Below, piece after piece: positions 26,837 through 30,618 of a stretch of DNA of 64,000 bases. Made by a program: the position numbers and the translations under genes. The DNA comes from Bifidobacterium sp. ESL0690 (GTDB lineage: Bacteria > Actinomycetota > Actinomycetes > Actinomycetales > Bifidobacteriaceae), in NCBI RefSeq assembly GCF_029392315.1, contig NZ_CP113939.1, positions 1,426,001 through 1,490,000 of the forward strand. Direction: 5' to 3'. Within the stretch, counting starts at the first letter, position 1. Each line of letters starts with the position of its first letter. The notes under the pieces are model-generated. The model was not told where the DNA came from, searched no databases, and saw nothing but the letters and a program-made list of their open reading frames with translations.

Positions 26837-28192
26837 ATGAGTCTGCCACATCATCCGACGATTGAACCGTTCGCCATCGAGCACGCCACGCTTGCCACTG
26901 GCGACGAGGACGGGCGTTCCATACCCGATTCCACCGTCGTGGTCGATGAGGTGGGCAGGATCGAAGCCATCGGGCCGAGTGCGTCGGTCACCGTGCCCAA
27001 CGGGTATCACCGGCTCGAGGCCACCGGCAAGGTCGTTTCGCCGGGCATGATCAACGGCCATATCCACACCAATTCCAAAGGGTTGCCCGGCAACCCGAAG
27101 AACCAGACCCCGACCGGCCAGCGCCGTCTGGTCCGTCTCCTGCGCTCGCTGCCCGGCCAGGTCTTCATGTATTTCAACAGCAAGTCCAATATCGAGACGA
27201 TGCTCAACTCCGGAGTCACCACGGTGCGTTCGGTGGGCGACATCGGCTACGAGCTCACCTGGCTGCGCGACGAAATCAGGGACGGCATCGTCGTCGGCCC
27301 ACGCATCATCCCGGCAGGCCCGATGATGTCCATCCCCGACGGGCACGGCGCCCCGCTTTCCGCGCTGGAAAGCGCCACACCGGAAGAATCCCGGCACACC
27401 ACGGCGGTCAACATCGCCCACGGGGTCAGGGCCATCAAAATCGCCGCCACCGGAGGCGTGACGGACTCGCAGGTTCCAGGCGAGGCGGGAACGCCGCAGA
27501 TGTCGATCGAGCAGATGCGCGCCATCTGCGAGACCGCCCATGAGGTCGGCATCATCGTCGCCGCGCACGCGCAGAGCCGCCAAGGTGTCTACAACGCCCT
27601 CAAGGCCGGCGTGGACACCATCGAGCATGGTTGCCCGTTGGACGACGAGCTGATCGGGATGTTCCTGAACAACCCGCTCACGCTTCGCGGCTACAGCGCC
27701 CTTGAGCCGACGCTTTCTGCAGGCCTCCCCACCGCGTTCCTTACCAAAGAGACCCTGCACATGACCGAGATACAGCTGGACAACTCGATTCCTATCGCCA
27801 AAGGCGTGGTCGTAGGCGCGCGCGACGCCCATGAGGCCGGCATCAAGGTCGGCGTAGGCACCGACACCGGTGTTCCGTATTCGATGGCATATGGCACCTG
27901 GCGCGAGATGGATCTCCTCCACCGCTATAGCGGCTTCAGCACCGCAGAGGCTTTCCACGCCGGCACGCAGGTCACCGCCGAGATCATCGGGGTCAGCGAT
28001 ATCACCGGTTCGCTCGAGGTCGGCAAATCCGCCGATCTGCTGGTATTGGCAGAAAACCCGGTCGACAACCTGCGCACGCTGGAACATCCGCTGATGGTCG
28101 TAGCCGCGGGCCACCCGATCTTCAAGCCGTCGGTGAAACGTTACCCGGAAATCGAGTCGACGCTCGACATGATCTATTCCAAACCGCTATAA
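26837..28192 (+). CDS. Amidohydrolase family protein, copy 2 (paralogue of 22478-23824)
   Basis: A 451-residue paralogue of copy 1, alike along the whole length (about two thirds of residues by eye). The same catalytic set is present: M-I-N-G-H-I-H, A-I-K-I-A-A-T-G-G, A-A-H-A-Q, T-I-E-H-G and G-V-G-T-D-T. The differences cluster after the H-x-H motif and around Y-F-N-S-K-S-N versus Y-E-T-S-K-S-N, which could alter substrate choice. GAGGAG 5 bases before the ATG fixes the start. It is convergent with the peptide-binding lipoprotein gene. Both copies keep all likely metal ligands, so neither looks decayed. Confidence 0.9.
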   Translation: MSLPHHPTIEPFAIEHATLATGDEDGRSIPDSTVVVDEVGRIEAIGPSASVTVPNGYHRLEATGKVVSPGMINGHIHTNSKGLPGNPKNQTPTGQRRLVRLLRSLPGQVFMYFNSKSNIETMLNSGVTTVRSVGDIGYELTWLRDEIRDGIVVGPRIIPAGPMMSIPDGHGAPLSALESATPEESRHTTAVNIAHGVRAIKIAATGGVTDSQVPGEAGTPQMSIEQMRAICETAHEVGIIVAAHAQSRQGVYNALKAGVDTIEHGCPLDDELIGMFLNNPLTLRGYSALEPTLSAGLPTAFLTKETLHMTEIQLDNSIPIAKGVVVGARDAHEAGIKVGVGTDTGVPYSMAYGTWREMDLLHRYSGFSTAEAFHAGTQVTAEIIGVSDITGSLEVGKSADLLVLAENPVDNLRTLEHPLMVVAAGHPIFKPSVKRYPEIESTLDMIYSKPL

Positions 28193-28268: not shown

Positions 28269-28307
28269 AAATGCGGGGCAGACGACATTTCCGTCTGCCC
28301 CGCATTT
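28269..28307. terminator. Strong bidirectional terminator
   Basis: 16-bp perfect stem (28269-28284 with 28292-28307), GC-rich at the centre and flanked by A- and T-runs, loop of 7. It lies between convergent amidohydrolase copy 2 and the peptide-binding lipoprotein gene. Confidence 0.88.
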
Positions 28308-28330: not shown

Positions 28331-30037
28331 TCACTTCGTCAGGTTCTCATAGATGATGTTGTTGCTCCAATCCATGCCAAAGCCCTTGATGGCCTTGTCG
28401 GCGACACCATGCGCATTGTTGTAATACAGTGGGACCACCGGTAGATCCTTCAGGATGATGGCTTGGGATTCCTGATAGATCTTGTTGGCCTCGGCGGTCG
28501 ACTTGGCCGCATAGGCCTTGTCCATGTAGACATCGAAATCGGGGTTGATGTAGTCCGTATCATTGGCACCGGCGCCGTGGGCTGTGCGCGTGTCGAAATG
28601 CTGGAACAGATAGGCCTCGGGCGAAGGATATTCCGGCGTCCAATCGTATCGGGTCGCGCCCACGACTTTTCTGGCCTCCACCGCGCTGCGGTATTCCTTG
28701 AAGGTCGGCATCGGGTTGGTTTTGACCTCGAGGCCTATCGTGTTCTTGATCGAATTGGCGATCGCGTCGTAGACGGGCTTGAGTCCGCTGTCGGAGTTGT
28801 AGGTGATGACCAACGGATCGGTGTCCTTGGAAATGGCTTCGGCTTTCGCCCAAAGTTCCTTGGCCTTCTTCGGGTTGTAGTTGAGCACGTCGTTGCCGGG
28901 AAGATCAGGCGAGTATCCAGGAACCAGCGGCGAGGTGAACTCGCGGGCCGGGGTGGCCGTGCCGTAAAGGATCTTGTTGATGATGTTCTTGCGGTCGATC
29001 GCCATGGAAACCGCTTGACGGCGCAACGTACCCTCTTCGGTCCTGGCCACGAAATGCGGCAGGCGCGAGGTCAGCCCAAGCATGGAAAGACGTGAACCAG
29101 GCTTGTTGTAAGCGGTGACTTGCGGATCGGTTTTGAAGGACTTGGAATCCGCTGCAGGCACGATCTCCATCACGTCGAGCTGTCCGCCCTGCACGTCGGA
29201 GTATGCGGCTTGGTCGGAGGTATAGACCTTGAAGGTGACGCCGGCGTTCTTGACCGTGCGCCCGCCATGATAGTAGGGGTTCTTCACCAGTTTGATGGAC
29301 GCATCATGATCCCAGCTGGCAAACTTGTAGGGGCCGTTGCCGACGGGATGCTGGCCGAATCCCTTCGGGTCCTTGAAGAACGCATCGGGAAGCGGCGAAA
29401 ATGCCGAGCAGCCGATCTTGATCGGGAATGTGGCGTCGGGATGCTCCAGATCGACGGTGAAGGTCTTGTCGTCAAGAACGGAAAGCCCGGAAAGCTGTTC
29501 GTCGCCTTTGAGCTTCGTGGGGTCCTGCAGGTCCTTGTAGCCTTTGATGGTCGTCAGATACGAGGTTCCCTTCTGCGCATCCTTCGCGTTGGCGGTATAG
29601 CTCCAGGCGCGCGTGAACGATTTCGCGGTCACCGGCGTGCCGTCGCTGAATTTCCATCCGTCTTTGAGCTTGATGGTGTATTTCTGGAGCGTTGCGTCGG
29701 GCTTGATCGATTCCGCCACCTCGTTGACGGCCTTGCCGTTGGGTTCAAAGCGAACCAGTTGGGAGAAGAGCAGGCCAATCGGCTTGCCGCCACCGGTTTC
29801 GTTGGTATCCCCTGGCACCAGCGGGCTCTGCGGCTCTGTGTCGTAGGCGGTGATGGTAGCCGTACCCTTCGCGCTCTCGTTCTTTTTGGAATCATCGCTT
29901 CCGCTGCCGCATGCCGAAAGCAGACTCGCGCAGAGCGCCAAAGCCAAGCCCGCCGCCATAGCCTTGCCACCACGCTTGCCCGCAAGCACCAACGACGGCT
30001 TCATCTTGCCATTTCGTAAATTCATCGTCATACCCAT
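28331..30037 (-). CDS. ABC transporter substrate-binding lipoprotein, oligopeptide family (OppA/DppA, SBP_bac_5)
   Basis: Extracellular lipid-anchored binding protein for peptides or similar solutes. A long basic N-region and hydrophobic core end in a lipobox L-S-A-C with Cys43. The mature part shows the family features: F-S-Q-L-V-R-F-E-P near the start, the segment Y-T-I-K-L-K-D-G-W-K-F-S-D-G-T-P-V-T-A, and G-N-G-P-Y-K-F near the middle. No permease or ATPase genes adjoin, so it must pair with one elsewhere. Upstream lies a tryptophan-type attenuator, which suggests that the ligand includes tryptophan or Trp-containing peptides (inference). Start at 30037 or, via overlap with an upstream mini-ORF, 30031; neither has a good ribosome-binding site. 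Confidence 0.9.
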   Translation of the reverse strand: MGMTMNLRNGKMKPSLVLAGKRGGKAMAAGLALALCASLLSACGSGSDDSKKNESAKGTATITAYDTEPQSPLVPGDTNETGGGKPIGLLFSQLVRFEPNGKAVNEVAESIKPDATLQKYTIKLKDGWKFSDGTPVTAKSFTRAWSYTANAKDAQKGTSYLTTIKGYKDLQDPTKLKGDEQLSGLSVLDDKTFTVDLEHPDATFPIKIGCSAFSPLPDAFFKDPKGFGQHPVGNGPYKFASWDHDASIKLVKNPYYHGGRTVKNAGVTFKVYTSDQAAYSDVQGGQLDVMEIVPAADSKSFKTDPQVTAYNKPGSRLSMLGLTSRLPHFVARTEEGTLRRQAVSMAIDRKNIINKILYGTATPAREFTSPLVPGYSPDLPGNDVLNYNPKKAKELWAKAEAISKDTDPLVITYNSDSGLKPVYDAIANSIKNTIGLEVKTNPMPTFKEYRSAVEARKVVGATRYDWTPEYPSPEAYLFQHFDTRTAHGAGANDTDYINPDFDVYMDKAYAAKSTAEANKIYQESQAIILKDLPVVPLYYNNAHGVADKAIKGFGMDWSNNIIYENLTK

Positions 30038-30148
30038 TCTTGTTGCTTTTTCTTGCTTTTCTCTGAATTGACTTTCATTCCTAGCATCACGGCTGTAAAT
30101 CGTCGGCAATGCCTCGGAACACCAACGCCTTCATATATCGACCAACAT
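30028..30148 (-). other. Chain of three overlapping mini-ORFs leading to the peptide-binding lipoprotein
   Basis: AAAGGAGGTGC, a near-perfect Shine-Dalgarno, precedes an ATG at 30148 that opens only M-L-V-D-I-stop (30131-30148). Its ATGA overlap starts a 15-codon ORF (30087-30134, M-K-A-L-V-F-R-G-I-A-D-D-L-Q-P). That ends TGATG into a 19-codon ORF (30028-30087, M-L-G-M-K-V-N-S-E-K-S-K3-Q-Q-E-W-V). The last stop overlaps, as ATGA, the ATG at 30031 of the lipoprotein frame. Coupled reinitiation is an inference; the overlaps are seen directly. Confidence 0.4.
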
Positions 30149-30206
30149 GCACCTCCTTTCCATTTTCATACCGCACCACCCTGGCCAAACCGACCGTCAA
30201 GACCAC

Positions 30207-30241
30207 AAAAAAGGGATGAACCACAATCTGTGATTCATCCC
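30207..30241 (-). terminator. Attenuator terminator of the trp-type leader
   Basis: Minus-strand 13-bp stem (30241-30229 with 30225-30213, one G-U pair), 3-base loop, then six U (30212-30207). It lies 64 bp after the leader-peptide stop and 170 bp before the lipoprotein start. Confidence 0.85.
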
Positions 30242-30304
30242 ATTGATCGACCGGAACCACAGGTTTTTGAACACAACCTGTGACCGACAAGCGGGGCAGA
30301 TTGT
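30223..30304 (-). promoter_or_regulatory. Antiterminator and pause-hairpin elements of the attenuator
   Basis: Just after the leader stop, ACAATCTG (30304-30297) can pair with CAGATTGT (30230-30223) in the ascending arm and loop of the terminator, an 8-bp perfect antiterminator. The same ATCTG-CC can instead pair with GGC-AC-AGAT, which overlaps the last Trp, His and Arg codons. A separate 8-bp hairpin CACAGGTT/AACCTGTG sits between (30282-30258). These mutually exclusive pairings are the standard attenuation layout. Confidence 0.72.
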
Positions 30305-30436
30305 TTATCTGTGCCACCACTGCCAGTTGTCGTTATTGGTATTGTTGCAATCAGAGTTTGCCACAACCACTGCGAAGGCGCGCTGAAGGGCAAACGCCGT
30401 AACAGGACGCATCCTGCTCACGCTCATCCGCTTCAT
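30305..30436 (-). CDS. trp-type leader peptide (43 aa, ends N-W-Q-W-W-H-R)
   Basis: An ATG at 30436 opens a 43-residue ORF with AGGGTGG 8 bases upstream. It ends N-N-T-N-N-D-N-W-Q-W-W-H-R followed by TAA. Three Trp codons within four positions next to the stop are the hallmark of tryptophan leader peptides, and actinobacterial examples also run W-W-W near the end. A ribosome stalled at these codons would cover the GGCACAGAT arm and free the antiterminator. The five Asn codons before them might add a second signal. The downstream gene is a peptide-binding lipoprotein rather than a biosynthetic gene. Confidence 0.75.
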   Translation of the reverse strand: MKRMSVSRMRPVTAFALQRAFAVVVANSDCNNTNNDNWQWWHR

Positions 30437-30618
30437 CTTCAACCACCCTGACTGTCTTTTGTCTTTCTTTGTCGACCGGAAATCAAATTCCCTTTATGCC
30501 GAAAAGAAACCACTAATTTCACCATACTCAGGCAACCGTTACTTCAATCCATATGTCCACAATCCGGACATGAAGGCATCTGTTGCGTAATCAACTTTAG
30601 CAGAAGGCAAAGAACGAT
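30437..30618 (-). other. Presumed promoter region of the attenuated transcript
   Basis: No gene. A short palindrome ATGTCC-N7-GGACAT at 30553-30571 could be an operator. TATGGT with TTGAAG 15 bp upstream is the best -10/-35 pair I can see and is weak. Confidence 0.35.

Follow-up and report, generated by a model that had tools for sequence, protein, structure and literature searches.

Why should the gene of an orphan peptide-binding lipoprotein be preceded by a short open reading frame ending in tryptophan codons and by an intrinsic terminator? The element in question lies on the minus strand, between a helicase gene and a family-5 binding-protein gene, in a stretch of 64,000 nucleotides (the window; positions 1426001-1490000 of a 2.64-Mb genome, G000). 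We consider it very likely that it is a ribosome-mediated transcription attenuator that ties synthesis of the orphan oligopeptide-binding lipoprotein to charged tRNA-Trp. The features of the locus are collected in Table 1. The leader ORF, with AGGGTGG as a possible Shine-Dalgarno sequence, ends in N-W-Q-W-W-H-R, its Trp codons starting at 30325, 30319 and 30316 and following five Asn codons, and the terminator stands ~180 bases ahead of the lipoprotein gene. Coordinates and folds agree with the initial annotation of this DNA as to the 43 codons, the terminal residues and a 13-bp terminator with six U. Transcription would begin at a promoter upstream of the leader, and the leader would be translated; no sigma-70 promoter match was found before it, and an upstream palindrome whose exact match is unique within its own genome may be an operator.

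Table 1 Coordinates of the attenuator element and of the features around it (positions within the window)
Feature	Positions	Strand	Details
DUF3516 helicase gene	33223-30653	-	Upstream of leader, same strand as leader
Palindrome ATGTCC-N7-GGACAT	30553..30571	.	Upstream of leader; arms kept in all three genomes with the leader
Leader ORF	30305..30436	-	ATG 30436, stop TAA 30307-30305; 43 aa, MKRMSVSRMRPVTAFALQRAFAVVVANSDCNNTNNDNWQWWHR
Trp codons TGG CAG TGG TGG (W-Q-W-W)	30314..30325	-	Same in all three genomes with the leader
Arm 1, covers Trp codons	30307..30327	-	Pairs with arm 2 in ribosome-free folds
Arm 2	30283..30304	-	First part ACAAUCUG (30304-30297) predicted to pair with arm 3 once arm 1 is masked
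Arm 3, CACAGGUUGU	30273..30282	-	Predicted partner: arm 4 (terminating) or arm 2 (read-through)
Arm 4	30254..30265	-	CUGUGGUUC (30262-30254) predicted to pair with terminator 5' arm GAAUCACAG (30236-30228)
Intrinsic terminator, arms 5 and 6	30213..30241	-	13 pairs, loop 3, TTTTTT tail
Shine-Dalgarno AAAGGAGGTG and four-codon ORF TTG GTC GAT ATA TGA	30131..30159	-	Between terminator and lipoprotein gene
Peptide-binding lipoprotein gene, SBP_bac_5, OppA/DppA-type	28331..30031	-	Pfam PF00496, 251.9 bits
Terminator-like site after lipoprotein gene	28269..28307	-	Loose scan

The terminator alone is unremarkable, because a loose scan finds two terminator-like sites in 4 kb and shuffled sequences average 4.7. 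In the window, two short ORFs have three or more Trp codons among their last eight (shuffle mean 0.25), and a Trp-ended short ORF combined with a perfect stem and U5 within ~140 nt occurs once, at the leader site, and in none of 100 dinucleotide shuffles. The 154-nt leader end folds at -56.7 kcal/mol (z -4.4), a stability that none of 200 shuffles attained.

The leader element was recovered from three of the 112 genus genomes (G000, G057 and G034), the first two of which are close and not independent, and each copy precedes a close ortholog of the lipoprotein (97% identical to that of G000 in G057 and 81% in G034). Gene order is the same in all three, i.e., helicase, leader, lipoprotein, convergent amidohydrolase and RarA-type ATPase, the neighbors in G057 and G034 having been matched by reading ORF lists. 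Counted from the aligned ATG, the leader ORF has 43 codons without gaps in every copy, only W-Q-W-W-H at its end is common to G000 and the most divergent copy (G034), and an intrinsic terminator lies between leader and structural gene in all three. Across the leader end and arms 1-3, G000 and G057 match at 95 bases in a row; identity in 40-column alignment windows well outside this block is 0.44 to 0.88, and 80% (224/281) of the 4-fold sites of the lipoprotein gene are identical.

Beyond these copies, searches of the 112 genus genomes, 11 of which were covered by patterns and the RNA model alone and the other 101 also by a protein search, gave no wider leader family of this kind. In those 101, only G000, G057 and G034 exceed 61% identity to the lipoprotein among the matches listed, and the best 120 of 2215 protein relatives include none above 62% except those of the three leader genomes. 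The motif TGGCARTGGTGGCAY is found in nine of the 112 genomes (the three leaders and six sites that are not leader-like), and the RNA model, at E up to 0.1, has matches in seven of 112, three of them the leaders; at the other four (L060-L063, E 0.005-0.04) there is no Trp leader, and a second match in G034 (L064) is on the other strand, where it overlaps the terminator of the leader itself. Across 297 genomes of the order, scanned with stricter filters and at most 11 candidates scored per genome among the matches listed, three matches have E up to 0.01, namely the window genome and two at E ~0.009. Upstream regions of 38 loci (L001-L038, two with shortened upstream sequence), a subset of the many more matches given by the protein search, yielded only the three credible leaders, and Rfam covariance models gave no match at the leader in the three loci and two chance-level matches elsewhere in the window.

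Without a ribosome, the leader RNA folds into three hairpins, namely 1:2 (arm 1 holds the Trp codons), 3:4 and the terminator 5:6. The initial annotation had proposed a Trp-type attenuator with a 1:2, 2:3, 3:4 layout before a peptide-binding lipoprotein, and had overlooked the hairpin 30282-30258 between leader and terminator together with its alternative pairing. This hairpin makes the layout six-armed, and the predicted wiring is his-type, in which 1:2, 3:4 and 5:6 would terminate whereas 2:3 and 4:5 would read through. What stands of the proposal is the Trp-type attenuator, its Trp codons and mutually exclusive pairings being present in three of three genomes; its four-armed wiring does not. 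No orthologous leader lacks the Trp codons or the alternative pairings, and the pairings named at the outset, of the last codons with AUCUGCC and of ACAAUCUG with CAGAUUGU inside the terminator arm, both exist in G000. We rejected the antiterminator initially drawn (ACAATCTG with CAGATTGT in the terminator), since the G057 sequence is altered there and lacks one base of the alignment.

In the fold of a transcript that ends after the terminator 5' arm and has arm 1 masked (edge at Trp codon 2), ACAAUCUG of arm 2 pairs with CAGGUUGU (arm 3) and arm 4 CUGUGGUUC with GAAUCACAG. Helix 4:5 keeps 9 of 9 pairs in each of the three sequences (27/27 cells), with four one-sided changes in G034. For helix 2:3 as drawn in G000, four of eight pairs are in register in G034, one via a double change, and G034 completes the helix by a shifted five-pair helix, GACAC:GUGUC; three terminator pairs are changed on both sides there (A-U to G-C). 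Shuffle controls reached the paired percentage of 2:3 and 4:5 in 44 of 500 cases and their covariation in 160 of 500, and the same two measures for the terminating-state helices in 11 and 36 of 500. Such controls on pair counts are weak because the alignment has three rows, too few for the covariation counts to reach significance by themselves. The complete terminator exceeds the antiterminator in equilibrium stability by 12-13 kcal/mol (the gap is 18 in the E. coli his leader), and read-through must therefore be kinetic.

For each first base that the ribosome leaves free, we computed how probable it is that upstream sequence holds the 5' arm of the terminator; ribosome edges are counted from the start of Trp codon 1. 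Over +15 to +21 this antiterminator probability is 0.75-0.93 in G000 and 0.86-0.91 in G057, and beyond that it is 0.00-0.15 in G000 (+23 to +31) and 0.02-0.08 in G057 (+23 to +30); in G034 it runs in the same direction with less contrast (0.95-0.97 at +9 to +19, 0.31-0.78 at +20 to +31). It rises again to 0.52-0.62 in G057 for edges at +32 to +39, and in all three genomes it climbs once more when the edge is at +44 to +45 and the ribosome covers arm 3. For ribosome-free RNA it is 0.20 (G000), 0.07 (G057) and 0.60 (G034). The same calculation on E. coli controls gave a fall from 0.61 at +20 to 0.03 at +24 for trpL and, for hisL, 0.44-0.54 at +14 to +22, 0.01-0.24 from +24 to +50 and 0.58 from +52.

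If the edge is set 13 bases beyond the first base of the A-site codon, the value for a stall at Trp codon 2 is 0.84, 0.88 and 0.96 (G000, G057 and G034), for codon 1 0.14, 0.31 and 0.96, and for codon 3 0.25 and 0.42 (G000 and G057), while the stop codon in the A site gives 0.12, 0.37 and 0.62. Owing to the codon 1 values of 0.14 and 0.31, a codon 1 stall in G000 and G057 would need a footprint two bases longer. Computed folding thus favors the antiterminator at a Trp codon 2 stall, over a range of ribosome positions resembling that of E. coli hisL and dependent on the footprint. The difference between this stall and the stop codon is strong in one genome (0.71 in G000, matched by 3 of 500 shuffles of the stop-to-terminator stretch) and weaker in two (0.52 in G057, 21/500; 0.33 in G034, 42/500); the stall value alone was matched in 34 (G000), 21 (G057) and 41 (G034) of 500.

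In the mechanism that we propose, a ribosome supplied with sufficient Trp would reach the leader stop codon and cover arm 2, so that hairpin 3:4 and then terminator 5:6 would form and transcription would stop at ~30207. Were charged tRNA-Trp short, the ribosome would stall at the Trp codons and mask arm 1; free arm 2 would then take arm 3, arm 4 would take the terminator 5' arm, and the polymerase would continue into the lipoprotein gene. The lipoprotein would hand peptides to an Opp permease encoded elsewhere, and Trp would be drawn from these peptides. Low charged tRNA-Trp would thus probably raise peptide uptake.

The hairpin could also be a constitutive terminator in an untranslated region, e.g., one that ends read-through from the helicase gene, with the Trp codons a coincidence. 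The helicase gene does lie upstream on the same strand, and terminator-like sites are common by chance under a loose scan, but the terminator starts 412 bases beyond the helicase stop (30653), and a plain terminator has no need of the Trp codons, ORF length and helix 4:5 that are conserved here; together with the joint occurrence of ORF and stem (0/100 shuffles), this makes the explanation unlikely. We give even less credence to nascent-peptide arrest, in which free Trp or another small molecule would be sensed through the WQWWH peptide and not through uncharged tRNA. TnaC senses Trp in this way, and the Gln and His of WQWWH are conserved along with the Trp residues; however, base pairing may be what preserves the CAG and CAY codons, which lie within arm 1 or next to it, and the terminator here is intrinsic, whereas the part of PMC1262725 available to us describes Rho for the E. 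coli tna operon.

A variant, already raised in the initial annotation, would retain the attenuator and have it respond, through the five Asn codons, to charged tRNA-Asn as well in G000 and G057. The Asn run is found in these two of the three copies, within the 95-base block identical between them, but it is missing from G034 (IVGGAMGARSWQWWHS), and we regard such a double cue as improbable, if slightly less so than the constitutive terminator. With good computational support, we infer a real, conserved six-arm Trp-codon attenuator that acts on an unusual target.

That target is one of eight family-5 binding-protein genes in the genome and stands alone, with no permease gene beside it; its start (ATG 30031) was chosen by comparison with G034. 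The terminator-like site behind the gene suggests that its transcript may be a single-gene one. Among solved structures, the chains closest to the protein in sequence carry the name DppA (391.9 bits) and are mycobacterial, and an AlphaFold model built on three alignment rows has a mean pLDDT of 33. The lipoprotein is 61% identical over 501 residues to an Opp binding protein encoded elsewhere in the genome, in tandem with another and next to genes for two permeases and a double ATPase. It probably feeds the Opp permease encoded elsewhere, and the leader points to peptides that would supply Trp as its cargo.

Some further observations concern these neighborhoods. The amidohydrolase gene (26837-28192, plus strand) is convergent with the lipoprotein gene in all three genomes, and its product scores below threshold against an Xaa-Pro dipeptidase model (208.7 bits vs a cut-off of 500); it may be a peptide-use partner of the lipoprotein. 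Upstream of tandem Opp binding-protein genes at four loci (L004, L027, L029 and L035), a terminator-like hairpin with a U-run directly follows a promoter-like stretch; as judged by eye, a short ATG ORF (MRL....FFV) extends across this hairpin, and the U-run forms its Phe codons. At L038 the hairpin is present, also by eye, but the ATG is not.

Tryptophan supply appears to be controlled at another locus as well. The genes trpE, trpB and trpS are found elsewhere in the genome (trpE with 492.8 bits, under the curated cut-off of 517.7), and trpE is preceded by a T-box-like leader (L053:1016-1260; 75.3 bits, E 1.5e-16, against a gathering score of 93) whose specifier position reads UGG in our own reading of the alignment. 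Judging from this match, trpE seems to be under T-box control, and the genome would thus seem to use two devices for one signal. Scanning the upstream regions for ORFs that end in two Trp codons gave none for trpE or trpS and two for trpB, both ending >700 bases from that gene. The four-codon ORF between terminator and lipoprotein gene (15 bases, TTGGTCGATATATGA) occurs in three of the 112 genus genomes, solely at the leader locus, and its Shine-Dalgarno spacing, compared by eye, differs by two bases in G034. We tentatively suggest, as a rather doubtful extension, that charged tRNA-Trp is read by two unrelated RNA devices that split supply (the T-box of trpE for synthesis, the his-type attenuator for peptide import), and that the four-codon ORF with its strong Shine-Dalgarno sequence adds a second, translational gate on the lipoprotein transcript.

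A literature search by title and start of abstract, with partial coverage (few subscription journals), returned no Trp attenuator before a peptide-binding protein and none in Bifidobacterium. In the passages available to us, PMC1262725 predicts trp operon attenuators in Corynebacterium and Streptomyces and names no Trp attenuator in Bifidobacterium, and PMC4833913 refers to a work on actinobacterial Trp attenuators (Korolev 2015). TrpP, beside the trp operon of C. glutamicum, is no precedent, because the portion of PMC11995493 at hand judges it not to be a transporter and gives it its own start site.

Leader-peptide attenuators are textbook devices of biosynthetic operons, and the target here is an orphan peptide receptor. 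If our reading is true, bulk peptide uptake would be under control specific to one amino acid, a hint that this receptor is important for Trp supply; the leader gives a functional clue for one of the eight family-5 binding proteins of the genome.

Among known systems, the leader of the E. coli his operon, in which attenuation is experimentally proven, has six arms that pair as 1:2/3:4/5:6 or as 2:3/4:5. The element described here is like hisL in this layout and in the range of effective ribosome positions, and unlike it in having Trp codons where hisL has His codons and precedes the his operon; we claim no sequence relation. E. coli trpL, which has four arms, shares the Trp codons and loses its antiterminator at a similar distance from the first of them, but differs in layout and in preceding a biosynthetic operon. 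T-box leaders likewise sense tRNA charging, though by direct tRNA binding, whereas sensing here would be by translation, and the leader locus has no T-box match. The DppA of solved structures and the bifidobacterial Opp binding proteins belong to the same protein family as the lipoprotein, which is an orphan copy. As far as the passages of PMC1262725 describe them, the Corynebacterium and Streptomyces trp attenuators have a conserved gGCC-rGCy-GGCC triple, spread over antiterminator and terminator, that is missing here (there is no GGCC in the G000 element). Like our leader they carry two or three Trp codons and a poly-U terminator in Actinobacteria, but in those passages they stand before trp operons or trpS, whereas the element of this locus stands before an SBP_bac_5 gene.
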